From NCBI RefSeq assembly GCF_039541115.1, contig NZ_BAABFP010000008.1, forward strand, positions 1-64,000: a DNA stretch of 64,000 bases, given 5' to 3'. Within the stretch, counting starts at the first letter, position 1, and each line of letters opens with the position of its first letter. This DNA is from Angustibacter luteus (GTDB taxonomy: Bacteria > Actinomycetota > Actinomycetes > Actinomycetales > Angustibacteraceae). The position numbers and the translations under genes were made by a program. The notes under the pieces are model-generated. The model saw nothing but the letters and a program-made list of their open reading frames with translations. It had not been told where the DNA came from and made no database searches. Of the stretch, positions 3,777 through 26,095 are shown piece by piece.

Positions 3777-3791
3777 CTCACCCTGAGTGAC
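3777..3791. promoter_or_regulatory. BldD-like box, perfect match
   Basis: CTCACCCTGAGTGAC fits the Streptomyces BldD consensus nTnACnC(A/T)GnGTnAn at every fixed position. It sits in the 204-bp divergent gap, centred about 89 bp from the TagD-like start (3695) and about 116 bp from the BY-kinase start (3900), so it could control both. The match is directly seen; the regulator is inferred. Confidence 0.6.
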
Positions 3792-3899
3792 TGGGCTGTT
3801 CGGGGAATCGCCCCTGGCACGCCGAACGGTGTGAAACCATCGAGGTGAGCACCGACGTACCCGTCCCCCGTCCACCACCGAGCCGAGGAGCAGCAGGAC

Positions 3900-5525
3900 A
3901 TGGATCTGCGCGAGTACGTCCTGATCCTGGTCAAGAGCTGGAAGCTCTTCGTGCTCCTGGGTCTGGCGGGCATCGCCCTCGGTATGGCGCAGAACCAGAG
4001 CAGCACGCCGCAGTACAAGGCGTCCAGCACGGTCTTCTTCTCACTCTCCCAGGGCGACTCGGTCAGTGAGCTCGTCCAGGGCTCGACGTACACCCAGAAC
4101 CTCGTCACCTCCTACGCCCAGCTCGCCCGGATGCCCGTGGTGCTGGAGCCGGTGATCGAGGACCTCGGCCTGGACACCACGGCCAAGCGGCTGTCCGGCC
4201 AGGTCGCGGCCGAGGCCCCGCTGGACACGGTCCTGCTCAAGATCACCGTCACCGACTCCTCGCCCAGCCGGGCCGCCGCCGTGGCGAACGGCATCGGCCA
4301 CCAGCTCGCGGTGTCCGTCGGTCAGCTCTCGCCGAAGTCCACCGACAAGGCCGAGGCGGTGAAGGTGACGACGGTCGCCGCCGCGGACGTCCCGCGCTAC
4401 CCGTCCGCGCCGCGCACGAAGGTCAACCTGGCGGCCGGCCTGCTGGCCGGACTGGCGGCCGCCTTTGCGATCGTGGCCGTCCGTCGCCTGCTGGACAACA
4501 AGGTCCGCAGCGAGGACGACGTCCGGCGGGTCACCGACGCCCCCGTCATCGGGTCCATCGGCATGCGCCGCGGTCGGCGGCGCAGCGCGCTGGTGCTCGA
4601 CCCGACCAGCCACGACCCGCAGGTCGAGGCGTTCCGCCGGCTGCGCACCAACCTGCGCTCGCTGGACGTCGACCAGCAGCACCGGGCGCTGGTCATCACC
4701 TCCGCCCTGGCCGGCGAGGGCAAGACCACCGTGGCGCTGAACCTGGCCCGCACGCTCGCCGAGTCCGACCTGCGGGTGCTGCTCGTGGACGCCGACCTGC
4801 GCCGCCCGAGCCTCGCCGACTACCTCGGGCTGGAGGGGACGATCGGGCTGACCACCGCACTCCTGCAGAACGTCCCGCTCGAAGAGCTCATCCAGGGTTG
4901 GGGCCCCATCCACGTGCTCACCGCCGGCGAGACCGCCGTGCGCCCGAGCGAGCTGCTCGGCTCCGACGCCATGGGCCGCCTCGTCCAGCAGATGGCCCAG
5001 CTGTACGACATCGTCCTCCTGGACGGCGCGCCGCTGCTGCCGGTCACGGACTCGGCGAGCCTGGGCAAGCACACCAGCGGCGCCCTGGTCGTCGTCGACG
5101 CCCGGCGCACGCGCCGCCAGCAGTTCGCGCAGGCGGTGGCCGCTCTGGAGATCGCGTCGGTGGACGTGCACGGCGTCGTGATCAACCGGGTGTCCGGGCA
5201 CGCGGACAGCTACGGCTACTACTCCGACACGAACAAGCCGGGCCTGCGCCGGCGCTGGCTGCAGCGGCGCCAGCACCGTCGCCCCCGGACGCCTGCCCGA
5301 CCGGCTGACCCGGGCCACACCCCGCTGACCGGCGGGAACGTCCGCCCGATACCGACGCCGGCGCCGACGCCGACGCCCGCGACCGCACCGACGCCCGCGC
5401 CTGCGCCGGCGCCCGCGCCGGCCAGCGGACCGGCTCCGCTGACCCCGCCCGCCGGCCCGGCGGCCGGTGCGCCCAACCCGCACCGGCCCGCGAGCGGCGA
5501 CCCGCACGCTGCGGGACGGCGCTAG
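3900..5525 (+). CDS. Polysaccharide copolymerase / BY-type tyrosine kinase (Wzz-Wzc fusion)
   Basis: A 541-aa membrane protein that should set polysaccharide chain length and regulate export by tyrosine autophosphorylation. Residues 1 to about 195 form a Wzz domain with two membrane segments (near residues 15-32 and 178-196). The cytoplasmic kinase follows: Walker A (LAGEGKTT, about 268-276), Walker A' (VLLVDADLRRPS, about 292) and Walker B (IVLLDGAP, about 370). Instead of the usual long Tyr cluster, only SYGYY remains near residue 440, followed by a basic then Pro/Ala/Thr-rich tail (about 480-540) of hexanucleotide-type repeats. ATG at 3900 has GAGGAG upstream. It is the first gene of a three-gene plus-strand operon with the polymerase and a glycosyltransferase. 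Confidence 0.9.
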   Translation: MDLREYVLILVKSWKLFVLLGLAGIALGMAQNQSSTPQYKASSTVFFSLSQGDSVSELVQGSTYTQNLVTSYAQLARMPVVLEPVIEDLGLDTTAKRLSGQVAAEAPLDTVLLKITVTDSSPSRAAAVANGIGHQLAVSVGQLSPKSTDKAEAVKVTTVAAADVPRYPSAPRTKVNLAAGLLAGLAAAFAIVAVRRLLDNKVRSEDDVRRVTDAPVIGSIGMRRGRRRSALVLDPTSHDPQVEAFRRLRTNLRSLDVDQQHRALVITSALAGEGKTTVALNLARTLAESDLRVLLVDADLRRPSLADYLGLEGTIGLTTALLQNVPLEELIQGWGPIHVLTAGETAVRPSELLGSDAMGRLVQQMAQLYDIVLLDGAPLLPVTDSASLGKHTSGALVVVDARRTRRQQFAQAVAALEIASVDVHGVVINRVSGHADSYGYYSDTNKPGLRRRWLQRRQHRRPRTPARPADPGHTPLTGGNVRPIPTPAPTPTPATAPTPAPAPAPAPASGPAPLTPPAGPAAGAPNPHRPASGDPHAAGRR

Positions 5526-5529
5526 CGCG

Positions 5530-6930
5530 GTGCCCGCGACGCAGTCGCAGCTCCGCGAGAAGGCCCTCGGGATCGTCCTCGCCACCGAGGCGACACCCGC
5601 GGTGCGCTCCGCCGCCATCCGGTCCACCGCAGCCGGCCTCGGCGTGCCCACCCGTCAGGTGCGCCAGTGGGTGCGCGAGGCGGAGGACGACCAGGTCGTC
5701 CCGACGTGGGCCAAGATCATCGCCGTGGGGCTGCTGGTGCTGCTGGCCTGGAGCCCGCACCTGAGGAAGGACATCCCGGCACCCCTGCCGATCGAGCTGC
5801 TGCTGCTCCCCCTGTGGTGGCCGGCGACGCGCCGCGCGCCCGCCTTCGCCCCGTTGATGTGGCTGGTCGGGGTGGCGCTGGCCAGCGGGTTCTGGCTCGC
5901 TGTCTGGAACGGCTCGGACCACGCCTACACCCACGGCGGGATGATCGCCACGACCAGCCTGGTCCTGAGCGTCTTCCTCGGCGTCGGCGTCATCCTGTGG
6001 GCGCGGACCGTGCTGGGCCTGCGCTGGACCGGCGTGGCGTTCGCGGTCGGGCTCCTGATGTCGGCCGCGCAGACGGCCAGCTCGGGTCTCGCCGCGACCA
6101 ACCCGTGGAAGTTCGCCTGGTCGCTGCCGGTGACCCTGCTGCTCCTGTCGCTGCTCGCCCCGGTGCGTTCACGGCTGGTCCAGGTCCTGGCCCTGGGCGG
6201 GCTCGCCCTGAGCGGTGTCACCAACGACGCCCGCAGCTTCTTCGGCATGTGCCTGTTCACGGCCGGGCTGGTCATCTGGCAGGGCCTGCCGGCGGGTCAG
6301 CCGGGCCGGCTCCGACGCATCACCCCGGCCGTCCTGCTCGCAGGCCTGCTCGCCCTCGTCTACTGGGGCGGCACGAAGCTGTTGCTCGACGGCGCCCTCG
6401 GCTCGGGCCTGCAGGAACGGTCCCAGGCCCAGGTGCTCAAGAGCGGCTCGCTGCTGGCCGGCGGCCGGCCCGAGTGGACGGCGACCTGGCAGCTCATGCA
6501 CGAACGTCCGCTCGGCTTCGGCCTGGGCTCGGTGCCGACCAGCAGCGACATCGTCGTGGCCAAGACGGGCCTGTCGAAGGTGCTGGAGGACTACGACAGC
6601 GGCTACGTGGACAAGTTCATGTTCGGTGGCGCGTTCAAGCTGCACTCGGTGGCCGCGGACCTGTGGGTCAACCTCGGGGTGCTCGGCCTGCTGCTGGCCC
6701 TGGTGGTCGCGGTGATCCTGCTCGGCTCGCTGGTCCGCGCGCTCGCCGACCGCACCGCGTCCGCGGTCGTCATCTTCACCACGGTCGTGGCGGTCTGGTT
6801 CCTCGCGTTCGGGCCCATCGTGTCCAACCTCGGCGACATCGGCCTGGCCCTGGGGCTGACCCTGCTGGTTCGGGACGCACCGGGGTCGGGCGCACCCGGC
6901 CCCGAGCCCGCCGGCCACGGTCCCGGGTGA
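5530..6930 (+). CDS. O-antigen ligase/polymerase-like membrane protein (Wzy-type)
   Basis: About 466 aa with around ten hydrophobic segments and, in the second half, a large extracytoplasmic loop bearing the family signature (MHERPLGFGLGSVP followed by LHSVAADLWVNLGVLG). This is typical of Wzy/WaaL-type enzymes that join undecaprenyl-linked repeat units outside the membrane. The N-terminal about 55 residues are soluble and HTH-like (AAGLGVPTRQVRQWVREAE), which is unusual. I prefer GTG at 5530, 4 bp after the kinase stop. A GTG at 5467 would give 21 more residues and overlap the kinase gene. The 3' end overlaps the next gene by GTGA. Confidence 0.8.
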   Translation: MPATQSQLREKALGIVLATEATPAVRSAAIRSTAAGLGVPTRQVRQWVREAEDDQVVPTWAKIIAVGLLVLLAWSPHLRKDIPAPLPIELLLLPLWWPATRRAPAFAPLMWLVGVALASGFWLAVWNGSDHAYTHGGMIATTSLVLSVFLGVGVILWARTVLGLRWTGVAFAVGLLMSAAQTASSGLAATNPWKFAWSLPVTLLLLSLLAPVRSRLVQVLALGGLALSGVTNDARSFFGMCLFTAGLVIWQGLPAGQPGRLRRITPAVLLAGLLALVYWGGTKLLLDGALGSGLQERSQAQVLKSGSLLAGGRPEWTATWQLMHERPLGFGLGSVPTSSDIVVAKTGLSKVLEDYDSGYVDKFMFGGAFKLHSVAADLWVNLGVLGLLLALVVAVILLGSLVRALADRTASAVVIFTTVVAVWFLAFGPIVSNLGDIGLALGLTLLVRDAPGSGAPGPEPAGHGPG

Positions 6931-8006
6931 GTCCACGCCACGACGGGCGGGTCGTCGTCCTGCAGTCGTTCGGCCGCCCGCGCCCGACCACGAACCCGTA
7001 CCTGCAGCTGCTGGCCCGCTCCGTGCCGGCCGACCGGGTGCACATGCTCCCGTTCAGCTGGCGGACGGCCCTGGTCGGGCGCTGGGACGTCTTCCACGTG
7101 CACTGGCCGGACGTGCTGATCCGGGGCTCCGGTCGCGTCCGGACCATCGGCCGCCAGCTGGCCGCGCTGGCGTTGCTGCTGCGCATCCGGGTCACCGGCG
7201 CCGGACTGGTCCGCACGGTGCACAACGTGCGCCCGCACGAGGGCGGGAGTCGCCTGGAGCAGCTCGTGCTGGGCCTGTTCGACCGGTGGACCACCGCGCA
7301 GATCGAGCTCGGCCCGGTGCGGGCGCCGCAGGTCCGCGCGCCGGCCACCCTGGTGCCGCACGGCCACTACCAGGACTGGTACCGCGGCGCGGACGTGCCG
7401 GACTCGGTGCCGGGTCGACTGATGTACTTCGGCCTGATCCGGCCGTACAAGGGCGTGCTGCCCCTCGTGGGCGCGTTCCGCGAGCTGGCCGACCCGGCGC
7501 TGAGCCTGCGGGTCGCCGGGCAGGTTCCCTCGCCGCAGCTGCGGGCCGAGCTGGAGCTCGCGCTCTCGAGCACCCCCTCGGCGAGTGGCCTGCTGGAGCA
7601 CGTGGACGACGCGACGCTGGCCGCCGAGGTCGGTCACGCCGAGCTGGTCGTGCTGCCCTACCTCGAGATGGGCAACTCGGGCGCCGCCCTGCTCGCCCTG
7701 TCGCTGGGCCGTCCGGTCCTGGTCCCGGCCAGCGAGTCCACCCGGGCGCTGGCCGCTGAGGTGGGCGAAGCCTGGGTGCTGACCTACGACGGCGAGCTCG
7801 GGCCGGACATCCTGCGCCAGGGGCTCGCGCGGGCGCGCGCCGGCCACGACGCGGGAGCCACCCCGGACCTGGGCGCCCGCGAGTGGGTGGCCGCAGGACG
7901 CCGGCACGCCGACGTGTACGCGGCCGCCCCCCGGCGGGCCCGCCGCCGGGCCCGCTTCAGCGAGCCAGGATCCCCAGCAGGTCGCGGCACATCGCGGTCG
8001 ACGTGA
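6927..8006 (+). CDS. GT-B fold glycosyltransferase
   Basis: A 359-aa enzyme starting at GTG 6927, which overlaps the polymerase stop (GTGA). The N-terminal half has the acceptor-side pattern VFHVHWPDVL and RTVHNVRPHE. The C-terminal half has the donor-side pattern LMYFGLIRPYKGV and ELVVLPYLEMGNSGAALLAL, as in retaining GT4-like enzymes and some beta-mannosyltransferases. It probably adds one sugar to the lipid-linked repeat unit on the cytoplasmic face. Its last 50 bp overlap tail-to-tail with the convergent glycosyltransferase gene ending at 7957, and the basic C-terminus (PRRARRRARF) falls partly in this overlap. Sugar specificity is unknown. Confidence 0.8.
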   Translation: MSPRHDGRVVVLQSFGRPRPTTNPYLQLLARSVPADRVHMLPFSWRTALVGRWDVFHVHWPDVLIRGSGRVRTIGRQLAALALLLRIRVTGAGLVRTVHNVRPHEGGSRLEQLVLGLFDRWTTAQIELGPVRAPQVRAPATLVPHGHYQDWYRGADVPDSVPGRLMYFGLIRPYKGVLPLVGAFRELADPALSLRVAGQVPSPQLRAELELALSSTPSASGLLEHVDDATLAAEVGHAELVVLPYLEMGNSGAALLALSLGRPVLVPASESTRALAAEVGEAWVLTYDGELGPDILRQGLARARAGHDAGATPDLGAREWVAAGRRHADVYAAAPRRARRRARFSEPGSPAGRGTSRST

Positions 8007-9000
8007 AACGGTCCTCGACCGCCGCGCGACCCGCGGCACCGAGGGTGCCGGCGGTCCCGCGGTCCGCGAGCAGCGCGAGGATCTGCGCGGCCATGGCTGC
8101 CGGGTCGGCGACCGGCACGACCCGACCGGTCGTCTCGTCCACGTAGTCGTCCATGCCCGGGGTGTCGGAGATCACGACGGGGCGGCCCGTGCTCATCGCC
8201 TCCAGCGCCACGGTCATGCCGGACACGTGCTGGTTCGGGCGGGTGGCGACGGCGACGACCGAGGCGCGAGCGTAGAGCTCGGCGACCTGGGCGTGCGGCA
8301 CGTGGGCGAGCACCTCGATGCCCTCCGGGGCCGGCTCCTTGGACGACGACTGCACCACGACCCGCACGTCCGGGCGCTCGCTCCGCACGATCTCCAGGGC
8401 CGCGAACAACGTCCGCGGGTCGCGGTCGCGGTCACCGCCGATGCTCACCACCATCGGCTCCGCCTGCTGGTAGGGCGCGAACCCGTAGAAGTCCGGGTCG
8501 ACGCCGAACCGCAGGAAGCTGACCGGCGGGGCGTCCGGGCCGAGCCACTGCGCGAGGACGTCGACCTGCGGGCGGCTGAGCGTCCACAGCCCGTCCAGGC
8601 CGCGCAGCAGGTCCCGGGTCCTGGCGACGTCCGCGGCGGCCTCGGGCCGGTCGAGCCGGTCGGTCACCCAGATCACGCCGGACAGCAGCCGCTCGCCGCG
8701 GACCGTCCCGTGGATCTGCGCGGCGGTCTGCTCGTCCCAGCAGAGCAGGTCACCGGCGACCCGGGTGGCCGGGCGCAGCGCCGAGACCCGCCCCGCGCTC
8801 GCCCGGCGGGCCAGGCGGGCCGCGGCGGACGGGGGACGAAGCTCCACTGCCGAGACCTGCGCGCCGCCCTGCTCGAGACCGTCCAGGCCGTACGGCCAGC
8901 GGCCGGGCACCGGACTCTGCGCGTGCCGCCGGGCCCACGCCTGCGGACCCTTCCCGGGGGCGAACAGGACGGTGGCGCGGACGTCGCTCGTGCCGGTCAT
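7957..9000 (-). CDS. GT4 glycosyltransferase, alternative separate start inside the apparent fusion
   Basis: ATG at 9000 is preceded by AGGAG with about 6-nt spacing and opens a self-contained 347-aa GT4 protein (MTGTSDVRATVLFAPGKG at the N-terminus). Even if the upstream reading frame is genuinely fused, this ribosome site could give a free C-terminal enzyme. If the upstream G run is one base too long, this is simply the next gene of the operon. Confidence 0.5.
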   Translation of the reverse strand: MTGTSDVRATVLFAPGKGPQAWARRHAQSPVPGRWPYGLDGLEQGGAQVSAVELRPPSAAARLARRASAGRVSALRPATRVAGDLLCWDEQTAAQIHGTVRGERLLSGVIWVTDRLDRPEAAADVARTRDLLRGLDGLWTLSRPQVDVLAQWLGPDAPPVSFLRFGVDPDFYGFAPYQQAEPMVVSIGGDRDRDPRTLFAALEIVRSERPDVRVVVQSSSKEPAPEGIEVLAHVPHAQVAELYARASVVAVATRPNQHVSGMTVALEAMSTGRPVVISDTPGMDDYVDETTGRVVPVADPAAMAAQILALLADRGTAGTLGAAGRAAVEDRFTSTAMCRDLLGILAR

Positions 9001-10095
9001 AGCGGTCTCCTGGCCTCGGCCGGTCGGGGGGCGCAGCAGCCACCGGTCGGCGGCGATGCGGCTGTCGGTGGTGGGCAGGTCGGCGAGGACCTGCCCGGCG
9101 TCTCGCGGCGAGCCCGCCGCCCGGGCCAGGGCCTGGGCCACCTGCGACGCCGGCGCCGTCGGAGCCAGGACCTCGTGCCCGTGGGCCTGCAGCCAGCCGG
9201 CCAGCCCCGTCTCGCTCGTCGTGACGACCTCGCAGCCGTGGCCGAGCCCCTCGACCAGCGGCAGGCCGACCTGCTCGCGCCAGGCGCCGACCCGTTGGGA
9301 GAGCAGCACGAGCACGTGCGCGCGGCGCAGCGCCTCGTGCACCAGCGAGCGCGGCGGGTCGACGTCGACCCGGACCTCGTCCCGGCCGGCCGCCCAGTGC
9401 TGGACGTGCTCGAGCAACGGACCCTTGCCGATCAGGTGCAGTCGCAGGCCCTGCGCACCGGCGCCGAGGGCCTCCCACCCGGCCAGGAGCTGCCGCACGC
9501 CCTTGCGCTCGCTGAACGCCCCCACGAACAGCACGGTGCCCGGCTCACGCTCGCCGGGTGGGCAGTCGCACGCCGTGGGCAGCGCCGGGAAGACGGCGGC
9601 CCGGCGGGCGAGCACCCGGTGCGGGACGTAGCCGGCCACCAGGTCGTAGCAGCCCTGGGTACCGAAGGCCAGGCGGTCGAAGCCGCGCACCAGCACCCCC
9701 AGGACCACGCGGGTGGCCAGCCGGGCGAGCGGCCGGGGCAGCCTCGCGGCGAGCTCGTCGGCCGGGTCGGTCAGCCCGATGCAGTAGGCCACGGCCAGCG
9801 CTCGCCGCCGCGGCGCCAGGCGGGCGGCGACCAGCTGGGCCAGCAGGTCCGGCCAGCGCCGGGTCATCAGCGGCTCGTTGAGCTCGACGACGTCGTAGCC
9901 CCCGGTGAGCAGCTCACGCACCGCCGCGGGCCGGGAGACCTGGCGCGGCACCGGCACGCCGTCCGGCAGGACGCTGAGGTCGTAGTCGTACCGGGTGCCG
10001 TGGTACAGCACGGTGGCCGGCGCCATCACGGCGAAGCGCTCGAGGTGCGCCGTCCGCAGCGACTCGTAGACGCGCGCGACCCGCACCTGCCTCAC
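7957..10095 (-). CDS. Two tandem GT4 glycosyltransferases read as one 712-aa ORF (possible fusion)
   Basis: From GTG at 10095 (GTGA overlap with the flippase stop) the frame stays open to the TGA at 7957. Residues 1 to about 360 form one complete GT4 enzyme (VLYHGTRYDYDL; donor half VLFVGAFSERKGV, LPLVEGLGHGCEVV). Residues 366-712 form a second (VSIGGDRDRDPRTL, VALEAMSTGRPVVIS). At the junction a G6 run (9026-9031, plus strand) precedes ATG 9000, which has its own AGGAG. Losing one G would stop the first gene at a TGA overlapping that ATG as ATGA, exactly the junction style of neighbouring genes. So this is either a true fusion, a slippery or phase-variable junction, or a one-base assembly error. 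Both enzymes probably act on the lipid-linked repeat unit. Confidence 0.6.
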   Translation of the reverse strand: MRQVRVARVYESLRTAHLERFAVMAPATVLYHGTRYDYDLSVLPDGVPVPRQVSRPAAVRELLTGGYDVVELNEPLMTRRWPDLLAQLVAARLAPRRRALAVAYCIGLTDPADELAARLPRPLARLATRVVLGVLVRGFDRLAFGTQGCYDLVAGYVPHRVLARRAAVFPALPTACDCPPGEREPGTVLFVGAFSERKGVRQLLAGWEALGAGAQGLRLHLIGKGPLLEHVQHWAAGRDEVRVDVDPPRSLVHEALRRAHVLVLLSQRVGAWREQVGLPLVEGLGHGCEVVTTSETGLAGWLQAHGHEVLAPTAPASQVAQALARAAGSPRDAGQVLADLPTTDSRIAADRWLLRPPTGRGQETAMTGTSDVRATVLFAPGKGPQAWARRHAQSPVPGRWPYGLDGLEQGGAQVSAVELRPPSAAARLARRASAGRVSALRPATRVAGDLLCWDEQTAAQIHGTVRGERLLSGVIWVTDRLDRPEAAADVARTRDLLRGLDGLWTLSRPQVDVLAQWLGPDAPPVSFLRFGVDPDFYGFAPYQQAEPMVVSIGGDRDRDPRTLFAALEIVRSERPDVRVVVQSSSKEPAPEGIEVLAHVPHAQVAELYARASVVAVATRPNQHVSGMTVALEAMSTGRPVVISDTPGMDDYVDETTGRVVPVADPAAMAAQILALLADRGTAGTLGAAGRAAVEDRFTSTAMCRDLLGILAR

Positions 10096-11459: not shown

Positions 11460-12382
11460 CCGGCACCCGCCCCGGTGGGCCGCAGCAACGCGCCCACACC
11501 GGCCAGCGTCCCGCGGACGGCGCCCAGCACGACGCGCGGCGAACGCAGGATCCGCTTGCGCCCACCGTGCCGGCGCAGGACCCGCCACGACGCCCGCGGC
11601 GTGGCCAGCAGCCAGCGCAGCCGCTCCCGGCGCGGCAGGTTCTTCGCGGCGAAGAGCAACCGGTTGCGGCAGTTGAAGTAGAAGTACAGCGGCGACTTGG
11701 CGTCGCCGCTCTGGGTGCCACCGACGTGGTGCACCACCTCGACGTCGTCCAGCACGACCAGCGGCAGCCCCTGCTGGGCGGCCCGCCAGCTGAGGTCGAC
11801 GTCCTCCCAGTACATGAAGTAGCGGTCGTCGAAGCCGCCGACCGCCCGCCACGTCGACAGCGGCACCAGCAGGCAGGCGGCGGTGAGCCAGGAGCCGCGC
11901 GCGGTCAGGTCCGGGCCGCCGCCGGCGCGCAGGTCACCGGTGGCCAGCTGCAGGACGCCACCGGAGAACCAGGTGCGACCGCCCGGCAGCACGATCCGCG
12001 GGGAGACCAGGGCGCCCGGGTGTCGCCGGGCGCCATCCAGCAGCGCCTCGACCACCGCCGGGTCGACGTCGACGTCCGGGTTCAGCAGCAGGACGGCGTC
12101 GCAGCCGAGCTCGGCCGCCCGCGCGACGCCCAGGTTCATGCCACCGCCGAAGCCCAGGTTGCGGTCGGCCTCGATCACCTGCCAGCCGTGCTGGTGGGCC
12201 AGTGCGCCGACGGCGGACCGCTCCGCGCCGGTCGTCAGGTTGTCGACGACCACGACGTCGTGCGGGGCCTCGAGCGCGCGCAGCGCCGGCAGCCGATCGG
12301 CCAGGAGCTGGTGCGAGGCGTAGTTCACGACGACCACGCCCAACCGGGAGACGTGGGCCGGGGCCTGCGGCTGGGCGCTCAC
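11456..12382 (-). CDS. GT2 family glycosyltransferase (rhamnosyltransferase-like)
   Basis: A 308-aa GT-A enzyme. The N-terminus GVVVVNYASHQLL and VVVVDNLTT is the nucleotide-binding part, DRNLGFGGGMNLG and LLLNPDVDVDP carry the DxD-type metal site, and FDDRYFMYWEDVDLSWRA is the acceptor/base region typical of dTDP-rhamnose-type transferases. No membrane segments. GTG at 12382 overlaps the upstream stop (GTGA) and the 3' stop overlaps the flippase ATG, so it is translationally coupled on both sides. The sugar donated is not certain. Confidence 0.85.
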   Translation of the reverse strand: MSAQPQAPAHVSRLGVVVVNYASHQLLADRLPALRALEAPHDVVVVDNLTTGAERSAVGALAHQHGWQVIEADRNLGFGGGMNLGVARAAELGCDAVLLLNPDVDVDPAVVEALLDGARRHPGALVSPRIVLPGGRTWFSGGVLQLATGDLRAGGGPDLTARGSWLTAACLLVPLSTWRAVGGFDDRYFMYWEDVDLSWRAAQQGLPLVVLDDVEVVHHVGGTQSGDAKSPLYFYFNCRNRLLFAAKNLPRRERLRWLLATPRASWRVLRRHGGRKRILRSPRVVLGAVRGTLAGVGALLRPTGAGAG

Positions 12383-18331: not shown

Positions 18332-18337
18332 TAGTTG

Positions 18338-21300
18338 TTATGGCAAGTCGACGTGCCGGACGTGCAGCTCGTCCACCGTGAGCGTCATCGGGGCGTTGGT
18401 GACCGAGCCGGACAGGTACCCCTGGACGGCGACGCCGCCGGGGTTCTGCAGGTCGGCCGTCGCGTCCGTGGCACTGACGTTCCAGGTAGCCGGCTCGGCG
18501 TCCCCGGCCTTCCAGACCCTGGCCCGCACGGTGGTGGGCGAGGCGCCGATCGTCTGGATGCGCACGTGGAACACGTCGCCGGGCTGGACCCCGGACGCCG
18601 CGGTGACCGCGGTGGCGATGGCCGTGTCGGTGCCCGCCACGGTGCGCGAGAGCCCGAGGGTCAGCCGCCCGTCGGCGAGGAAGCGCATCTTCGCCCGGTA
18701 GTCGGTGGTCGCCGTGATCCGACGGCCGATCACGGACACGTACGTGCCGCCACCGGTCTGGGCCTTGTCGAGCGAGACGTCCACGACGGTGTCCGCGCTC
18801 GGGTCGCCGATCCCGGCCAGGGCCGCCGTGAGCGTGGCACCGGCCGCCATCTTCAGCTTGCCTGCGCTGCCGTCCACCGAGAAGTTGGCGTTCCCGCCGG
18901 AGATCGTCCAGGCACCGCCGAGGTCGGCGGGGCCGAAGCCGGAGGCGACCGTCCGGGAGAACGTGTCGTCCGCCACCACACCGGACACCGGCGCCACGAC
19001 GGTGACCGCCTTGGTGATCGACCCGGTCGCCCCGTCGTCGTCCGTCACGGTCAGCCGGACGTTGTAGGTCCCGCCCGCCGGGAAGGTGTGGCTCGGCGTG
19101 GCGGACGTCGAGGTGCCGCCGTCGTCGAAGTTCCAGCTGTACCCGGTGATCGTGCCGTCCGTGTCGCTCGAGGCGGTGCCGTCGAACGCGGCGTCCAAGC
19201 CGCTGGCGGTGTTGCTGAACGCCGCGGTCGGCGCGTCGTTCACGTTCGGCGGGTGGTACTCGCTGGCCACCGTCGCGGCGGACACCTGACGGTTGAAGAC
19301 GGCGATGTCGTCGATCGTGCCCGCGAGGTAGGACGACGTCGGCGCGCCGGTCCACCCGCTGAGGGTGTCACCGATCCGCCAGTACCCGGTCAGCACGCTG
19401 GCCGAGGTCACCGTCGGGGCGGAGGCCACCTGGACGCCGTCGACGTACAGCACCTGACCGGCGCTGCCGAGGGTGGCGACCACGTGGTGCCACTGCCCGT
19501 TGTTGACGACGCCCGGGCTGGTCAGGATGCGGTTCACCCCGGACTGCCGGGCCCCGAACGAGATCTTGCCGTCGTTGCGCAGCCACACGTTGCGGTCGGT
19601 CGTCGTGCTGTTGCCGCTGGCCGCCGTGCCGGCGCCGAGGATCTTCCCGCCACGCGTCGTGGTGGTCTTCACCCAGGCGCCGATGCTGAACGCGCCGGGC
19701 ATCGCCGCGGAGGCGCGGGTGGCCCCTCGACCGTTGCTCGTCCCGTCGAACAACGACGCCGGGTCGCTGTCGCCGGTGATCGCACCGGCCTGTCCGCCGC
19801 TGACGCCGGTGCCGAGCACCAGGTCGTCCACGCCGGCCCAGTCGTGCGCGATCGCCTCGGACTCACCCAACCGCCAGTACTCGGTCGGTCCGTCCGCGAG
19901 GACCTGACGGGCCGACGAGCTGAGGCCCGCGGCCGAGGCGACGGTGATCTGCTGGTTCTCGCTCAGCGAGGTGTTGCCCAGCGGGTCGGTCACCGTGAGG
20001 CGGTAGCGGTGGGTCGAGCCCGGGGCCACCCCGGTGTCGATGAACGAGAGCCGCGGCAGCGTCCAGAAGTTGGAGACCACGGTCTGCTGCCACACGGGGT
20101 TGGCCGTGTCGTTGTCCCGGATCAGCTTGTAGACCAGGGTGTCGTTGTCCCGGTCCCAGGTCGCGGGGAAGGTGAACCGCACGGTGCCCGGCTGGTACGA
20201 CTGCATGTCCGGGTTGAGCGCGGCGCCGCCACGGTTCACCGGGCCGGACTGGTTCGGTCCCAGGGCCCGGGTGGTGAAGCGCGCCAGCCCTTGCTGCGGG
20301 ACGCCGTCGACGCGGGGGAACTCGCCACCGATCACCACGTAGTCGCTGTTGCCGGTGATGTTCCAGGCCGCCTGGCCCTGCCCGGTGAAGGTGCCGGCCT
20401 CGGGGTCCGGGAACCAGTGCAGCAGGTTCGGGCGGGGGTTGCCCTCCCAGTTGGTGTAGTTGCCGGTGGTGTTCCTGGTGATCGTCCCGCCGACCGTCTT
20501 GGTCCAGGCCAGCGCGTGGTGGTGGGTGCGCGGGTTCGTCTCGGGGTACCCGCCGACGTTCCCGCAGAAGTGCACGTGCCCGATGGAGTAGACGACGTCA
20601 GGCATGCCGCCGTACGCGGAGTACGTGTCGCCGTGGCAGTCCTCCATCCAGACCAGCGCACCGCTGTTCGGGTTGGCTGCGAAGGTGCCCTCGAAGTTGC
20701 CGCCCGAGCCGAACACGTAGCCAGTGCCGTACACGTTCGTGCCGTCCGTGGACAGGCTCGTGATCCCCGCGTTCGCGCCGGCGTCCATGATCTTCTGGTT
20801 GGCCGCCCAGGGCAGGACCGCCCCGGTGCTGGCGTCGAGCGCGCCCAGCCCGTACGCCGCCACCCCGCTCAGCTGGGTGAACACCCCACCGACGACGAGT
20901 CGGCTGCCGTCCGGGCTCATCACCATGGCGCCGACCGCGGCGTTGGCCGTCGGAGCCCAGGGCAGGACCGCGCCGGTGATGGCGTCCACCGCGCCCAGGT
21001 TGGTGCGCACCGTGGAGCTCAGACCGGAGAAGGAGCCCGCGATGTACAGCGTCGTGTTGGTCGCCGTCAGCGCGCGGACCTTGTAGTCCACGCCGGGGCT
21101 GAACGAGCTGATGATCTGGCCGGTCGCGGTGTTGTAGGCCGCGATGCGGTACCGCTTCAGCCCGTTGGCCATCGTGAAGTCGCCGCCGACGTACAGCCGG
21201 GAGCCGTCCGGCGAGGCCGCCACGGTCATCACCTGCGCGTTCAGGTCGGGCGCGAAGCTGGTGATCAGCTCGCCGGTGGTGATGTCGTAGGCGAGCAGGT

Positions 21301-21586
21301 TGTTGCGGGTCACCTCGCCGGTACCGGCCGGGGCGCCGGCCGGACGTGCACTGGTGAACCGGCCGCCGGCGTAGACCGTGTTGCCGACCACCACCTGGGA
21401 CCACACGACGCCGTTGATCTGCACCGTGGGCAGGATGTCGGCGCCGACGGTCTGCGGGACCCCGGGCGCAGGGTTGGTGTCCGCCAGCGCCTGCGAGGGC
21501 AGCACCAGGGCGGTCAGCCCGGTGAGCAGCAGGGCGGCGACGGGCGCCAGGGCGACCAGGGCGCGAGGGCGGCGATTGGTGAGCAT
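18338..21586 (-). CDS. Giant secreted beta-propeller / LamG / PKD protein (paralogue)
   Basis: A 1082-aa exported paralogue of the neighbouring 1566-aa protein. Signal peptide residues 1-36 (LTGLTALVLPSQALA), propeller about 38-440 with the same Cys pair (EDCHGD, HFCGNVG), an Fn3-like segment about 450-550, one LamG (about 564-775, EYWRLGES), one PKD (about 782-865, WNFDDG, so the usual FGDG is altered) and the C-terminal concanavalin-like module (about 873-1082). I choose ATG 21586, not GTG 21637, because GGGGA lies six bases before it and the protein then begins directly with a signal peptide; the upstream motif spacing also then equals that of the paralogue. Tandem duplication with later domain gain or loss is likely. 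The role is presumably extracellular matrix binding. Confidence 0.88.
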   Translation of the reverse strand: MLTNRRPRALVALAPVAALLLTGLTALVLPSQALADTNPAPGVPQTVGADILPTVQINGVVWSQVVVGNTVYAGGRFTSARPAGAPAGTGEVTRNNLLAYDITTGELITSFAPDLNAQVMTVAASPDGSRLYVGGDFTMANGLKRYRIAAYNTATGQIISSFSPGVDYKVRALTATNTTLYIAGSFSGLSSTVRTNLGAVDAITGAVLPWAPTANAAVGAMVMSPDGSRLVVGGVFTQLSGVAAYGLGALDASTGAVLPWAANQKIMDAGANAGITSLSTDGTNVYGTGYVFGSGGNFEGTFAANPNSGALVWMEDCHGDTYSAYGGMPDVVYSIGHVHFCGNVGGYPETNPRTHHHALAWTKTVGGTITRNTTGNYTNWEGNPRPNLLHWFPDPEAGTFTGQGQAAWNITGNSDYVVIGGEFPRVDGVPQQGLARFTTRALGPNQSGPVNRGGAALNPDMQSYQPGTVRFTFPATWDRDNDTLVYKLIRDNDTANPVWQQTVVSNFWTLPRLSFIDTGVAPGSTHRYRLTVTDPLGNTSLSENQQITVASAAGLSSSARQVLADGPTEYWRLGESEAIAHDWAGVDDLVLGTGVSGGQAGAITGDSDPASLFDGTSNGRGATRASAAMPGAFSIGAWVKTTTTRGGKILGAGTAASGNSTTTDRNVWLRNDGKISFGARQSGVNRILTSPGVVNNGQWHHVVATLGSAGQVLYVDGVQVASAPTVTSASVLTGYWRIGDTLSGWTGAPTSSYLAGTIDDIAVFNRQVSAATVASEYHPPNVNDAPTAAFSNTASGLDAAFDGTASSDTDGTITGYSWNFDDGGTSTSATPSHTFPAGGTYNVRLTVTDDDGATGSITKAVTVVAPVSGVVADDTFSRTVASGFGPADLGGAWTISGGNANFSVDGSAGKLKMAAGATLTAALAGIGDPSADTVVDVSLDKAQTGGGTYVSVIGRRITATTDYRAKMRFLADGRLTLGLSRTVAGTDTAIATAVTAASGVQPGDVFHVRIQTIGASPTTVRARVWKAGDAEPATWNVSATDATADLQNPGGVAVQGYLSGSVTNAPMTLTVDELHVRHVDLP

Positions 21587-21640
21587 GTGGTGTCCCCAGC
21601 GGTGCGATGGTGCGCGCCGCGAGATCGCGGCGCTCACCAG

Positions 21641-21648
21641 CGAACGTA
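21641..21648 (-). promoter_or_regulatory. CGAACGTA promoter/leader element (copy 2)
   Basis: CGAACGTA on the plus strand starts 55 nt before the preferred ATG at 21586, matching the 57-59 nt spacing at the other two genes that carry it. It abuts a BldD-like sequence at 21646-21660. Confidence 0.4.
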
Positions 21649-21660
21649 ACGCTGCGCAAC
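21646..21660. promoter_or_regulatory. BldD-like box, one mismatch (promoter-proximal)
   Basis: GTAACGCTGCGCAAC fits nTnACnC(A/T)GnGTnAn except C for the second T. A more degenerate version (GTAACTGCGCGCAAC, 18264-18278) lies at the equivalent place before the paralogue at 18200. Confidence 0.4.
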
Positions 21661-21697: not shown

Positions 21698-21712
21698 ACT
21701 ACCCTGAGTTAC
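21698..21712. promoter_or_regulatory. BldD-like box, one mismatch (promoter-distal)
   Basis: ACTACCCTGAGTTAC matches the BldD consensus except C for the first T. It is centred about 119 bp before ATG 21586. In gene direction it ends in TAGTATTATC, so a TATTAT -10-like hexamer (21693-21698) directly adjoins the box, a repression-type arrangement. Confidence 0.5.
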
Positions 21713-21718: not shown

Positions 21719-22342
21719 TCACGCGGAAGCGTCTCCGCGGAGCAGCACGACCGGCTTCGTCGGGTCGTAGCTGACGTTCAGCTCGACCGATCCGCGCGAC
21801 GACTTCGGCACCAGCCAGACGTACGTGGCGCTCGCGTCCTGACCGGCCTTGACCGAGCCGGTCCAGGGCTTGGACGGCGGTGACGAGCTGTCCACCGCCG
21901 GCGTCGCCGCCTTGCCGTACGACGCCGTCACCACCGCGTTGCCGAGGTCCAGTGTCGTGGGGGTCCCGTTGTGCAGCTGCAGCGTGATGGCGACCGCCGA
22001 CCCGCTCAGCTCGCCCGGCCCTCGACCCTTGACCGTCACCGCCTTGACCGACGAGACGTGCACCGTGACCCCGCTGCCGAAGGTTGCCGTGGAGCGCAGC
22101 GGCTGCGCCTTGTGCGTGGGGCGGGCACTGCCGGCCACACCGGTCGTGGGAGCGGACGAGGTCGAGGCCGACGGGCCTGACGTCGTACCGCCCGGCGTCG
22201 TCGACGAGCCGGTCGGCTGGGCGCTGGCGGTGGCGGACGTGCCCGAACCGGCAGTCGGGTTGCCGTCGGAGCCGGAGCAGCCGGCGAGGAGCCCGCCCAC
22301 CACCACCAGCCCCGTCACGGTCGCGAGTGCGACTCGGGTCAT
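21719..22342 (-). CDS. Putative lipoprotein with DUF4352-like C-terminal domain
   Basis: A 207-aa predicted lipoprotein. The lipobox LLAGC places the modified Cys at residue 22. Residues about 23-75 are a Ser/Thr/Gly/Pro-rich linker and about 80-205 form a beta-rich domain (ITLQLHNGTPTTLDLG, ASYGKAATPA) resembling DUF4352-type immunoglobulin-like domains. It lies 16 bp after the CDP-alcohol phosphatidyltransferase gene, so it is probably the last gene of the operon starting at 25946. It may bind or anchor material at the outer face of the membrane. No enzymatic motif is seen. Confidence 0.75.
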   Translation of the reverse strand: MTRVALATVTGLVVVGGLLAGCSGSDGNPTAGSGTSATASAQPTGSSTTPGGTTSGPSASTSSAPTTGVAGSARPTHKAQPLRSTATFGSGVTVHVSSVKAVTVKGRGPGELSGSAVAITLQLHNGTPTTLDLGNAVVTASYGKAATPAVDSSSPPSKPWTGSVKAGQDASATYVWLVPKSSRGSVELNVSYDPTKPVVLLRGDASA

Positions 22343-22358
22343 CCGTCGTGCCTCCTGG

Positions 22359-23120
22359 TCATCGCGGCGCCGGACCTGCCAGCGCCTGCATGTCGTGGAA
22401 CCACTTCACCACGGCAAGCGCCAGGAATCCGGCGTTCGCGAGGAAGAACAGGCAATACACAGGGAAGAACGCCGCGGGCACACCGAACAGCACGAACGCC
22501 AGGCAGAGGAACCCGTAGTCGGTGGGGATCACCAGCAACGACCGCAGCCGGGACGTGCCGCCCCGCTCGATCGGCACCCCGGTGGCGGCGACCTGCCGCT
22601 GGCGGAGCAGGTCGTTGAGGATCATGCCGAAGAAGGCGACCGACGACACCGCACTGAACGCCAGGGGGACCAGCAGCCAGCCGTCCGCGACGTCGTAGAA
22701 CCGGTACACCGCAACGAGAACGGCCAGGTGCAGCGTGGCGACCTTGCCCGCGTCGAACATGTGGTCCAGCCACTCCCCCGCCGGCGAGCCGCCGCCGCGC
22801 AGCCGGGCGAGCTGGCCGTCCGCGGCGTCCAGGGCGTACCCGAGCACCAGCAGGGCGGCCACCAGCACGCCGACCCACCACTGCGGCCGGACCAGGAACA
22901 CCACGGCGATCGCCGCGTACGTGAAGCAGGCGCTGACCGCGGTGACCTGGTTCGGGGTGCGCCCGAGCAGGTACGCGGCGGCCGCGAACGAGCGCCCCAG
23001 CGGCCGGTTGACGTAGCGCGAGTATGCCGGCGCGCCCTTGGTCGTCTTCTGCGCCTGCGACAGCCGCTGCCTGGTCTCCCGGAAGCCCGGCCGCTCGTTC
23101 GCGGCATCCAGCTGCATCAT
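22359..23120 (-). CDS. CDP-alcohol phosphatidyltransferase family membrane protein
   Basis: A 253-aa integral membrane protein with about six hydrophobic segments and the complete family signature D-x2-DG-x2-AR-x8-G-x3-D-x3-D (DAADGQLAR, then GEWLDHMFD, near residues 98-123). These enzymes move a phospho-alcohol from a CDP-alcohol, or a phosphatidyl group from CDP-diacylglycerol, to an acceptor. Within a polysaccharide locus that also has a TagD-like gene, it may attach a polyol-phosphate or make a lipid anchor such as a phosphatidylinositol-type lipid. The first ATG (23120) overlaps the upstream stop as ATGA, with a second ATG three bases later. The substrate pair is inference. Confidence 0.85.
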   Translation of the reverse strand: MMQLDAANERPGFRETRQRLSQAQKTTKGAPAYSRYVNRPLGRSFAAAAYLLGRTPNQVTAVSACFTYAAIAVVFLVRPQWWVGVLVAALLVLGYALDAADGQLARLRGGGSPAGEWLDHMFDAGKVATLHLAVLVAVYRFYDVADGWLLVPLAFSAVSSVAFFGMILNDLLRQRQVAATGVPIERGGTSRLRSLLVIPTDYGFLCLAFVLFGVPAAFFPVYCLFFLANAGFLALAVVKWFHDMQALAGPAPR

Positions 23121-24289
23121 CGCTCGGCCCCCACTCGGTCAGCCTGGCTCGTCGCCGCGCGCCGGCGTCCGGATGCCCTGTGCCGCAACGGGCCCGAGGC
23201 CGCCAGCCGGGCGCAGAGCTGCTCGTACGCGGCCGTCACGTCGTCCCAGTCGTAGCGGGCCGCGCGCTCGCCCGACGCGACGCCCCGCTCCCGCTCGGCC
23301 TGCGGGTCCGCCTCCGCCTTGGTCACCAGGGCGCGGACGTCCTCCGGCGTGCCGAAGTAGTGTCCGGCCTCGCCCAGCACCTCGCGGTTGAAGACCACGT
23401 CGAACGCCGACACCGGAGCCTGCGCCCCGATCGCCCGCAGCAGGGAGGGGTTCGTGCCACCGACGGAGTGGCCGTGCAGGTAGGTCAGCGAGCCGGCGTA
23501 CAGCTGGTCCAGCAGCTCCTGGTCCCAGATACCGCCGAGCAGCCGCACCCGGTCGTCGGCCAGGGACGTGACCCGCTCGGTGTAGGCGTCGGAGTAGGGC
23601 GCCGAGCCCACGACCACGAGGGGCAGCCGCGCGTCGCTGCGCACGTAGCCCTCGACGACCAGGTCGAGGTGGTTCTCCGGCTCGAAGCGGGCGACCACCA
23701 GGTGGTATCCCCGAGGCGTGAGGTCCAGCTCACCGAGCCGGTCCAGCCGCTCGGGGTCGATGGTGGGGGCGCCGTACGCGATCAGGTCGGTGCCAGCGTC
23801 GAACTCGTCACGGTAGTAGTCCGCGATGCCCTGGGCGTCGGCGATGAGCGCGTCGGACCAGCGCACCGCGAGCGCCTCTGCAGCGCGGTAGTAGCGCCGA
23901 CCGGTCGGTCCCCACTTGCCACGCCGCCACTCCAGGCCGTCGACGTGGGTGGCGACCGGGACCCGCCGGGCGCGCAGCACCGGCAGGAACGGCGAGTTGG
24001 CCGCGTTGAACACCACGACGGCGTCCGGACGGCGCCGGCTCACCAGGTGCAGCACGGAGAGCGCGCTGTGGCTGAGCGTCTCGAGGGAGCGCTTGCGCAG
24101 CGCCGGCAGGTGCACCAGGCGCATCCCGAGGTAGCTGTCGCCGACCTCGGCGTCCCCGCGGCAGTAGACGACGACCTCGTGGCCGCGCTCGACCAGGCGA
24201 CGCCCGACCTCCTCGACGCAGGTCTCGAAACCGCCGTACCGGGCCGGCACGCCACGAGTCCCCACCAGTGCGATGCGCATGCTCGACAT
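23117..24289 (-). CDS. DUF1972 / GT4 glycosyltransferase (WchF-like)
   Basis: About 390 aa. The N-terminus MRIALVGTRGVPARYGGFET is the hallmark of DUF1972 glycosyltransferases, several of which add rhamnose as the second sugar after the initiating phosphoglycosyltransferase. The donor half has HLVVARFEPENHLDLV and LHGHSVGGTNPSLLRA, the usual E-x7-E region being replaced by a GTNPS pattern as in this family. It directly follows the WbaP-like gene, consistent with the second step of assembly. ATG 24289 is a tentative start; ATG 24280 or a GTG further upstream is possible. The stop overlaps the next ATG. Confidence 0.85.
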   Translation of the reverse strand: MSSMRIALVGTRGVPARYGGFETCVEEVGRRLVERGHEVVVYCRGDAEVGDSYLGMRLVHLPALRKRSLETLSHSALSVLHLVSRRRPDAVVVFNAANSPFLPVLRARRVPVATHVDGLEWRRGKWGPTGRRYYRAAEALAVRWSDALIADAQGIADYYRDEFDAGTDLIAYGAPTIDPERLDRLGELDLTPRGYHLVVARFEPENHLDLVVEGYVRSDARLPLVVVGSAPYSDAYTERVTSLADDRVRLLGGIWDQELLDQLYAGSLTYLHGHSVGGTNPSLLRAIGAQAPVSAFDVVFNREVLGEAGHYFGTPEDVRALVTKAEADPQAERERGVASGERAARYDWDDVTAAYEQLCARLAASGPLRHRASGRRRAATSQADRVGAER

Positions 24290-24335
24290 TCTCTCGTACG
24301 GAACGGCGTCCTCGGACGGTCGCAAACCGGAAACC

Positions 24336-25946
24336 TCAGTAGGCGCCGGATCCGCGCACGACGGCCCGGGCCGTCTTCCACAGGATCTGCAGGTCGAACG
24401 CCACCGACCAGTTGTCGACGTAGCGCAGGTCCAGCCGGACCGACTCCTCCCAGCTGAGGTCGGCTCGTCCGCTGACCTGCCACAGGCCCGTCAGGCCGGG
24501 CTTGACGCGCAGCCGGCGGTGCACGGCGTCGTGGTAGGCGTCGTACTCGACGCGCAGCGGCGGACGCGGTCCGACCAGCGACATGTCACCGCGCACCACG
24601 TTCCACAGCTGCGGCAGCTCGTCGAGGGAGTAGCGGCGCAGGAAGCGGCCCACCGTGGTGACCCGCGGGTCCTGGCGCATCTTGAACATCAGTCCGTCGC
24701 GGTCGCTGGAGTCCAGCACCTCGTGCCGACGATCCTCGGCGTCCACCACCATCGAGCGCAGCTTCCACAGCCGGAAGGGGCGCCCGTCCTGCCCGATCCG
24801 CTCCTGCGGGAAGAAGGCCGGTCCGCGGCTGGACAGCCGCACCAGCAGCGCGCTGACGGCGATCACCGGGAGCGCGGCGAGGAAGAGCGCGGTGCCGAGC
24901 GTGCGGTCCAGCGCCGCCTTGGCGAGCATCTGGCCCTGCCGGGAGTCCGGGGACTCCACGTGCAGCAGCGAGAGTCCTGCTGCCGGGCGAACGTGCAGCC
25001 GCGGGCCTGCCACCTCCACCAGGCCCGGGGCGACCACCAGCTCGGCTCCGGTGCGCTCGAGGGCCCAGCTGAGCCGGCGCAGCGACGCGGAGGACATGCC
25101 GGACCCGGCGACGATCACGACGTCCACCTGGTGGTCGATGACCGCCTGCGGGATGTCCGACAGGCTGCCCAGCACCGACAGGTCCCCGATGAGGTCCCGG
25201 TCGGACAGCATGGTCGGCACGCAGGTGCCGATGACCTGGTAGCCGTGGTAGGGCACCGACGAGAGGTCGCGCACGACATCGTCCACGGCGGACGGGTGGC
25301 CGACCACGATGGTGCGCATGAGCGCCTGACCCCGGTCGCGCTGGCGGTGCAGCTGCAGCCGCAGCACGTACCGGTAGATCGCGGTGAACAGGGCGACCAT
25401 GGGGACGACGACCAGCACGAACCGGCGCGGCAGCAGCAGGCCGAGGCTGTAGGACGACAGCGCCATCGTCACCAGGACCAGCACGGCGGCGCGGCCGATC
25501 ATGTTGAACTCGTCCGGGCCCTCGCCGGTGCGGCGGCTGTCGTAGGCCCGGAGCAGCCCCAGGGCCGCGCACCAGGAGATGGCGGCGACCAGGCTCAGCG
25601 CGACGTATCCGGCGAACTCCGCGATGGAGTCCTGCCTGGACAGCAGCGTCATCAGCAGGAACGAGACGAAGGCGATGACGAAGTCACCCGTGAAGGCGCG
25701 ACGGCGCCACGGGCCGGCCCAGAGCTGGCGACGGTCCGCCGCCCGGGCGACCGGGTTGAACTCCCCGCTCGCCGGCGACTCGCCCTCGCCCTCGCCCGGT
25801 CGGGTCGGCTGGCGGACGATGAAGGGCTGCTTCGAGGCCCACGACACGCGGTCGGTGGACGCGGGAGATCGACGGTCCGCCACGGTGGACGAGGGGGTCA
25901 CGTCGTCATCGGCGTCGACCCCGAGCGAGTCGTCGTACGTCGTCAT
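24336..25946 (-). CDS. Undecaprenyl-phosphate sugar phosphotransferase (WbaP/CpsE type)
   Basis: A 536-aa polyprenyl glycosylphosphotransferase, the predicted initiating enzyme of repeat-unit synthesis on undecaprenyl phosphate. The N-terminal about 95 residues are soluble and acidic. Four hydrophobic segments (about 110-215), a Rossmann-like CoA-binding-type region (TIVVGHPSAVDDVV) and another membrane segment (about 350) follow. The catalytic domain has PAFFPQERIG, FRLWKLRSM, LRRYSLDELPQLWNV and GDMSLVGPRP, as in all bacterial sugar transferases, and ends LWKTARAV. ATG 25946 is chosen over a longer upstream frame because that extension runs through the promoter sites. It heads the operon 25946 to 21719. 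Confidence 0.9.
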   Translation of the reverse strand: MTTYDDSLGVDADDDVTPSSTVADRRSPASTDRVSWASKQPFIVRQPTRPGEGEGESPASGEFNPVARAADRRQLWAGPWRRRAFTGDFVIAFVSFLLMTLLSRQDSIAEFAGYVALSLVAAISWCAALGLLRAYDSRRTGEGPDEFNMIGRAAVLVLVTMALSSYSLGLLLPRRFVLVVVPMVALFTAIYRYVLRLQLHRQRDRGQALMRTIVVGHPSAVDDVVRDLSSVPYHGYQVIGTCVPTMLSDRDLIGDLSVLGSLSDIPQAVIDHQVDVVIVAGSGMSSASLRRLSWALERTGAELVVAPGLVEVAGPRLHVRPAAGLSLLHVESPDSRQGQMLAKAALDRTLGTALFLAALPVIAVSALLVRLSSRGPAFFPQERIGQDGRPFRLWKLRSMVVDAEDRRHEVLDSSDRDGLMFKMRQDPRVTTVGRFLRRYSLDELPQLWNVVRGDMSLVGPRPPLRVEYDAYHDAVHRRLRVKPGLTGLWQVSGRADLSWEESVRLDLRYVDNWSVAFDLQILWKTARAVVRGSGAY

Positions 25947-26002
25947 CTCCACCCCAACCACGTCCACGCGGCGTCGCCCCCTAGCAACTCCGTCGGTGTC
26001 AC

Positions 26003-26010
26003 CGAACGTA
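26003..26010 (-). promoter_or_regulatory. CGAACGTA promoter/leader element (copy 3)
   Basis: CGAACGTA starts 57 nt before the ATG at 25946, the same distance (55-59 nt) as before both giant secreted-protein genes. Here the preceding sequence in gene direction is CGTCCCTAC, not GTTGCGC, so only the 8-mer core is conserved. Confidence 0.4.
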
Positions 26011-26080
26011 GTAGGGACGTGTAACGGGCGTGTGAAAATGGCGGAATCGCCCGCGCAAACCATCAATAGTGACTAGTTAT

Positions 26081-26095
26081 CTCACGCAGAGTGAA
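26081..26095. promoter_or_regulatory. BldD-like box, perfect match
   Basis: CTCACGCAGAGTGAA fits nTnACnC(A/T)GnGTnAn at every fixed position, centred about 142 bp before the initiating-transferase ATG (25946). In gene direction it is followed by GATAACTAGTCAC, where GATAAC could be a -10 hexamer. It also lies about 33 bp past the pth stop. Confidence 0.6.

Follow-up and report, generated by a model that had tools for sequence, protein, structure and literature searches.

The question raised by a 64-kb stretch of the Angustibacter luteus genome (the window: positions 1 to 64,000 of contig NZ_BAABFP010000008.1, assembly GCF_039541115.1) is whether the genes for an extracellular polysaccharide and its surface proteins answer, as one set, to the second messenger cyclic di-GMP (c-di-GMP). 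BldD is a regulator that depends on c-di-GMP and, in Streptomyces, is known to block sporulation. The original prediction placed five BldD-type boxes in one polysaccharide locus of the window, before the Wzz/BY-kinase gene with its divergent TagD-like neighbour, before the genes of two giant secreted proteins (here found to have LamG and PKD domains) and before the gene of the initiating transferase, and suggested that the locus may be controlled by c-di-GMP through BldD. That suggestion gains support here, since boxes recur at orthologous promoters where the genome has BldD and are almost missing where it lacks BldD. We put a probability of roughly 80% on the reading that the sites are functional BldD operators through which BldD-(c-di-GMP) would switch the units of the matrix locus together. 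As we observe them, the boxes are tied to the presence of BldD, recur in several families and are firmest before the LamG/PKD genes.

For counting, a strict box was defined as the core TNACNCWGNGTNA with at most one mismatch (the 13-bp core of the consensus used in the original prediction); start codons, from which distances were taken, were assigned by reading the sequence. A pattern scan returns the five boxes where they had been placed, two perfect and three with one mismatch, all intergenic and in front of the four units named (Table 1). In the published form of the box, TNAC(N)5GTNA (available text of PMC4151990), exact matches lie at 3778, 18328 and 26082, and the sites at 18318, 21647 and 21699 have one mismatch to the stricter consensus. 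The match at 18328 includes the stop codon of the second giant’s gene (18338-18340). Two more one-mismatch matches in the window, at 15709 and 30156, fall inside frames with Pfam matches.

The two perfect matches compare with a shuffle mean of 0.15 (1 of 100 shuffles reached 2), and the 4.16-Mb genome holds 10 perfect sites against 2 for the reversed pattern. The actual rate, about one per 416 kb, makes such sites rarer than the original estimate of one perfect chance match in over 100 kb. Allowing one mismatch, the genome-wide count is 221 against 111 for the reversed control. The 22.3-kb locus has 6 such sites (one inside a gene) against 1.2 expected at the genome rate (Poisson P 0.0014, post hoc), and the whole window gives P 0.058; the window’s count is no higher than in shuffles. 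The original prediction had named equal box density in random coding DNA as telling against it, and boxes are not equally dense elsewhere: the surroundings of GGDEF genes in the same genome contain 12 boxes in about 217 kb (some stretches overlapping) and 2 of 32 GGDEF promoters have one, compared with 5 boxes over 4 of 4 promoter regions in the polysaccharide locus. The pair of perfect sites is unusual, whereas the three with a mismatch are, alone, only suggestive; it is position and recurrence in relatives, not counts, that make the case for the boxes.

A BldD orthologue and putative diguanylate cyclases, which the original prediction said to look for, are both present; lack of a BldD homologue would have refuted that prediction. 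Using a typed S. coelicolor BldD sequence of 166 residues as query, one orthologue was found, which shares 79% identity with residues 1-161 of the query and is the sole match at E<=0.001. Its DNA-binding part shares 60 of 71 residues with the query, and the bipartite c-di-GMP signature RXD-X8-RXXD, as given in the available text of PMC4151990, is intact (RGDYNGKVLSIRQDD). The genome also has 32 GGDEF domains above the Pfam cut-off at 32 places, a rich predicted c-di-GMP network. The promoter of bldD itself carries a one-mismatch box at -83; among relatives, a box occurs there in 2/2 Streptomyces and 6/8 Geodermatophilaceae, and none was seen in 4/4 Streptosporangiales or before the closest of four Nakamurella copies. 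S. coelicolor BldD binds its own promoter (according to the title of a cited reference), so binding to a site with one mismatch is plausible. A feedback loop from BldD to the genes for diguanylate cyclases was also considered and not seen: 30 of the 32 GGDEF promoters are box-free and two have a one-mismatch box, unlike the diguanylate-cyclase targets of Streptomyces in the available part of PMC8325347.

Across the 20 BldD proteins of loci L138-L157 the helix-turn-helix stretch is near-invariant. Three of them, from family f7 (L155-L157; genomes G062, G093 and G078), are just 61-63% identical and have an altered stretch between the c-di-GMP motifs (RGDEQ.DEMPIRVDD); the signature residues and the helix-turn-helix are kept, and boxes are present in G062 and G093. 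A Nakamurella metagenome-assembled genome (L112-L115) has one BldD and three BldD-like paralogues, 40-46% identical and, by eye, without an intact c-di-GMP signature.

The first comparison concerned loci related to the first giant, a protein of 1566 residues. A similarity search returned 79 loci, 76 of which were scored (all but L087, L095 and L097, where the match begins only around residue 1000 of the query). The LamG gene has a strict box upstream in 7/9 Geodermatophilaceae loci (Blastococcus and Modestobacter) versus 1/67 others, a Streptomyces; the reversed pattern occurs there in 5/76 loci, none from Geodermatophilaceae. The placement of genera in Geodermatophilaceae and Streptosporangiales is our assumption. 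For a BldD search we selected 36 of the 79 loci, and it could be carried out for 35. BldD was present in 15 (8/8 Geodermatophilaceae, 2 Streptomyces, 4 Streptosporangiales and 1 Nakamurella) and not found in the genomes of 20 (Cellulomonas, Actinotalea, Microbacterium, Arthrobacter and others); the strict box precedes the LamG gene in 8/15 with BldD versus 0/20 without.

Gene order in the Geodermatophilaceae loci is largely that of the window, and the other units can be followed as well. A box stands before the initiating transferase in four of the six loci that hold it (L061, L062, L064 and L067; not L053 or L060) and, beyond those six, in L162, not in L159 or L161. The divergent region between the Wzz and TagD-like genes has one in three of the six loci showing the pair (L061, L067 with two, one of them perfect, and L077) and none in L058, L060 and L064. 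Some 1.5 kb beyond the TagD-like gene, a one-mismatch word, TCACCCAGGGCAA, was noticed in L060 (20979), L061 (19929) and L064 (23618), and TGACCCAGGGCAA in L058 (15850); it may be coding sequence or an operator.

A second comparison covered 59 relatives of the window’s genome within its order, of which 13, the window not counted, have the LamG gene. A box was found upstream of it in 6/13 and none was seen in 7/13. The prediction written beforehand was that all six would have BldD and that the seven would lack it, entirely or for the most part; BldD is present in 6/6 and absent in 4/7. We then contrasted promoter windows (-350 to +30) of the LamG, transferase and Wzz genes. The 45 regions from Geodermatophilaceae, BldD-carrying order relatives and the window (17,143 bp) contain 30 strict boxes, namely 15 in 21, 10 in 20 and 5 in 4 regions respectively, versus 1 box in 58 regions (22,041 bp) from genomes without BldD; the other BldD carriers (Streptomyces, Streptosporangiales, Nakamurella) have 1 in 9. 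Taken by gene, LamG regions have a box in 7/11 (Geodermatophilaceae), 7/12 (order relatives: families f7, f18 and one f15 genome) and 0/37 (no BldD) cases; the corresponding figures are 2/5, 1/3 and 0/8 for the transferase and 2/5, 0/5 and 1/13 for Wzz, and 4/4 regions of the window have one. From these counts, the signal is carried by the LamG promoters and the Wzz site is conserved in Geodermatophilaceae only. Conservation differs between the units, being strongest before the LamG/PKD giants and weaker before the transferase.

As a control, 180 palindromes were made by permuting the same half-site letters. Among them the motif ranked 2 in Geodermatophilaceae, 2 in the order relatives and 1 in the window, compared with 47 in the other BldD carriers and 137 in genomes without BldD; in Geodermatophilaceae and the order relatives a single pattern outranked it, TCACNNWNNGTGA, which is another TNAC(N)5GTNA form. 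A dyad scan blind to the motif was run on the 45 regions (256 half-sites and spacers of 0-13, giving 3,584 dyads; scoring was limited to the 1,242 that had 8 or more hits). TCAC-N5-GTGA came first (50 versus 4.7 expected, with 11 in the larger set without BldD) and TGAC-N5-GTCA second (28 versus 2.3, with 6 in that set); both are the published BldD box.

For replication, a search with the LamG N-terminus across 248 genomes of the order gave 32 previously unseen genomes (13 with BldD, 19 without) and 53 promoter regions. The thresholds, set beforehand, were a strict box in at least 50% of genomes with BldD and in at most 10% of those without. The latter held, with strict boxes in 1/19 genomes (1 in 36 regions). 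One genome of this group, G198, is probably that of L027, which the first comparison had already used, and so not new; when it is set aside, 1/18 genomes have a strict box and none of 33 regions has an exact one. Exact TNAC(N)5GTNA matches number 17, in 9/17 regions with BldD, versus 0 in all 36 without; the nine regions belong to 7/13 genomes, all seven of family f7. The motif ranked 2 among the 180 permuted palindromes in the BldD carriers and 129 in the rest. By family, over both sets of order relatives, a box precedes the LamG gene in 0/5 genomes of f14 and 1/5 of f15, and a strict or exact box does so in 10/10 of f7 and 2/2 of f18.

Several results weigh against BldD control of the locus. 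By count, one-mismatch sites show no excess in the window (7 versus 6.31 in shuffles, 46/100 of which reach 7), so the case is not rested on bulk one-mismatch counts. In the replicate, strict boxes occur in 5/13 BldD carriers, short of the 50% threshold, and six genomes with BldD, of families f14 and f15, have no box before the LamG gene; the same is true of three order relatives in the second comparison (G051, G069 and G083). Within the order relatives, boxes before Wzz (0/5) and the transferase (1/3) are absent or scarce, and in the first comparison the box before LamG was found in 0/4 Streptosporangiales, 0/1 Nakamurella and 1/2 Streptomyces with BldD. The 11 TCAC-N5-GTGA dyads that remain, at one mismatch, in promoters without BldD belong here too, as does the fact that BldD loss and box loss follow phylogeny, for which reason the genomes are not independent. 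In the same-genus genome G001 neither the Wzz/BY-kinase nor the LamG query found a match at E<=1e-40, which makes that genome unusable as a footprint. The wiring is lineage-restricted among BldD carriers, and some lineages have BldD without it.

A further conserved word emerged from a word count in the BldD-positive promoters; this count and its follow-up were post hoc. CGTCACGCTTAGT, which belongs to a TCAC-N5-GTGT site, lies upstream of the LamG gene in 7/9 Geodermatophilaceae loci. In six of the eight whose start was set it is 60-76 bp from that estimated start; L077 has it too. Six of the seven sites run on in a GTGT-like way to TCACGCTTAGTGT, a single mismatch away from TNAC(N)5GTNA, and L058 and L077, the two loci without a strict box, are among the seven. 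The site may be a BldD site missed by the strict motif, or a promoter element. In L058, L060 and L077, GATCGGGTG stands exactly 41 bp before CGCTTAGT. Another word, TACGTTCG, has only three copies in the window, 62-66 bp before the start codons of both giants and the initiating transferase (shuffle mean 0.63; 1/100 shuffles reached 3). The sequence ACGTTCG is absent from the other 41 BldD-positive promoter regions examined, and TACGTTCG is possibly a shared promoter element or a second operator. The box at 21647-21659 overlaps the copy at 21641-21648 by two bases, and the box at 21699-21711 adjoins a TATTAT hexamer.

Direct control of the matrix locus by BldD-(c-di-GMP), probably as repression, is the most likely account. 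Tetrameric c-di-GMP would dimerise the BldD of this genome, and the dimer would bind TNAC(N)5GTNA boxes at promoters within one extracellular-matrix locus: those of the Wzz/BY-kinase and divergent TagD-like genes, of the two LamG/PKD giants and of the initiating transferase. In this way c-di-GMP would switch the matrix polysaccharide and its surface proteins together, with repression at high c-di-GMP and release when it falls, by analogy with Streptomyces. Binding to the boxes, and its dependence on c-di-GMP, we infer from sequence, the signature residues being intact. Granted binding, repression seems the better bet of the two signs. The opposite sign, in which BldD binds but activates and high c-di-GMP turns the matrix on as in proteobacteria, is possible though doubtful. 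If TACGTTCG marks the promoter, three of the four boxes of the three units that have it would lie upstream, a place that suits an activator; however, the two-base overlap with TACGTTCG and the box adjoining TATTAT suit occlusion, and the available text of PMC4151990 and PMC8325347 has BldD-(c-di-GMP) as a repressor.

We consider it improbable that the boxes are bound not by BldD but by another XRE-type regulator sharing its DNA preference. The family can duplicate, as the distant paralogues of the Nakamurella genome indicate, yet the window’s genome has a single BldD match at E<=0.001, the boxes track BldD itself across genomes, the helix-turn-helix hardly varies among the 20 BldD proteins compared and the bldD promoter carries a box of its own. 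That the boxes are chance matches in AT-richer intergenic DNA, as the unremarkable one-mismatch count in the window might suggest, is very improbable and for the gene family refuted, given 1 box in 58 same-gene promoter regions without BldD (1 in 36 in the replicate), permuted palindromes averaging 1.13, 0.68 and 0.20 against 15, 10 and 5 for the motif, and a motif-blind scan that puts forms of the BldD box first and second.

The Pfam content of the locus supports a Wzx/Wzz-type polysaccharide locus (Table 1), and the 1566-residue protein is, judging from its N-terminus, predicted to be secreted.

Table 1. Boxes, promoter words and genes of the locus (window positions, except for the last row; aa, amino acids)
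Feature	Position	Strand	Remarks
BldD box, perfect, TCACCCTGAGTGA	3778..3790	+	Intergenic, with the TagD-like gene (ATG 3695, -) diverging from Wzz/BY-kinase (ATG 3900, +); centre 116 bp upstream of the kinase start codon
BldD box, one mismatch	18318..18330	-	Centre 124 bp upstream of 1566-aa LamG/PKD gene
Exact TNAC(N)5GTNA, TAACTAGTTGTTA	18328..18340	-	Overlaps box 18318-18330, 10 bp away
BldD box, one mismatch	21647..21659	-	Centre 67 bp upstream of second giant (ATG 21586)
BldD box, one mismatch	21699..21711	-	Centre 119 bp upstream of second giant (ATG 21586)
BldD box, perfect, TCACGCAGAGTGA	26082..26094	-	Centre 142 bp upstream of initiating sugar transferase (ATG 25946)
Word TACGTTCG	18259..18266, 21641..21648, 26003..26010	-	
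TagD-like cytidylyltransferase	3273..3695	-	Pfam PF01467, 2.1e-15, on frame 3273-3878; ATG read from sequence
Wzz/BY-kinase	3900..5525	+	Pfam Wzz PF02706 and CbiA/AAA_31
Open frame after kinase	5467..6930	+	No Pfam match; relatives in L053, L062, L158
Group-1 glycosyltransferase(s)	7957..10524	-	Pfam PF13692
Wzx-like flippase	10092..11852	-	Pfam PF01943
Family-2 glycosyltransferase	12379..13323	-	Pfam PF00535
1566-aa protein	13500..18200	-	Pfam: LamG and PKD domains, Rax2-like propeller match
Second LamG/PKD protein	18338..21586	-	Pfam on frame 18338-21637; ATG 21586 read from sequence
207-aa protein	21719..22342	-	Lipoprotein-like N-terminus by eye; no Pfam match; relatives in several loci
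CDP-alcohol phosphatidyltransferase family	22359..23120	-	Pfam
Glycosyltransferase (Glyco_trans_4_4, DUF1972)	23117..24325	-	Pfam
Initiating polyprenyl-phosphate sugar transferase	24336..25946	-	Pfam Bac_transf PF02397, 6.9e-66, frame 24336-26066; start read from sequence
Word CGTCACGCTTAGT, related loci	L053 9841, L058 5029, L060 9838, L061 9817, L062 6530, L064 9848, L077 3456		

Of the eight other perfect sites of the genome, three (L001, L005 and L008) are within long open frames whose composition is coding-like, and L006 has long open frames without clear codon bias, its status being uncertain. The site of L002 is just before a 138-residue frame without a Pfam match, that of L004 (1501-1513) is some 135 bp upstream of a frame that weakly matches AdoMet_dc (S-adenosylmethionine decarboxylase; 2.1e-6), and that of L007 is just before a LysR-type gene.

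In proteobacteria, c-di-GMP controls exopolysaccharide. The link between c-di-GMP and matrix is common to both cases; here, however, it would run through a BldD-type transcription factor and probably with the opposite sign. With the BldD-(c-di-GMP) regulon of Streptomyces, as far as the available text of PMC4151990 and PMC8325347 goes, the present case has in common the regulator, its signature, the TNAC(N)5GTNA box and a box in the bldD promoter, whereas the targets described there are developmental and other regulatory genes together with diguanylate cyclases, and those predicted here are matrix polysaccharide and surface-protein units. The sporangium-matrix clusters of Actinoplanes missouriensis, another actinomycete, are also of Wzx/Wzy type and are turned on in development; the control tested there is TcrA, according to the accessible part of PMC13390465. 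A 2013 review (PMC4255298, in its available portion) merely suggests a possible role of BldD in simpler actinomycetes and leaves the question open. Among the literature matches listed (including PMC4151990, PMC8325347, PMC4255298, PMC12691653, PMC8166509 and PMC13390465, each available in part), there is no report of BldD control of such a locus, although an earlier mention is possible, for example in the S. coelicolor BldD targets of den Hengst 2010 or in the work of Mouri 2017 on BldD of A. missouriensis. The regulator and the box are already known; the matrix-locus target set is, within those partial texts, apparently unreported.

What the finding offers is a concrete and conserved candidate target set outside Streptomyces, one that would tie c-di-GMP to matrix production through BldD. 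The many genomes that keep the surface-protein gene without BldD provide a natural experiment, and the exact sites allow the sign, repression versus activation, to be tested. More speculatively, and on balance rather unlikely as a whole, control of the extracellular matrix may be an ancient function of BldD that Geodermatophilaceae and several families of the order have retained and that disappeared wherever BldD was lost. With BldD-(c-di-GMP) as a repressor, c-di-GMP would then switch the matrix off, opposite to what is usual in proteobacteria, and the part that BldD plays in Streptomyces sporulation would be one branch of a wider programme of surface differentiation.

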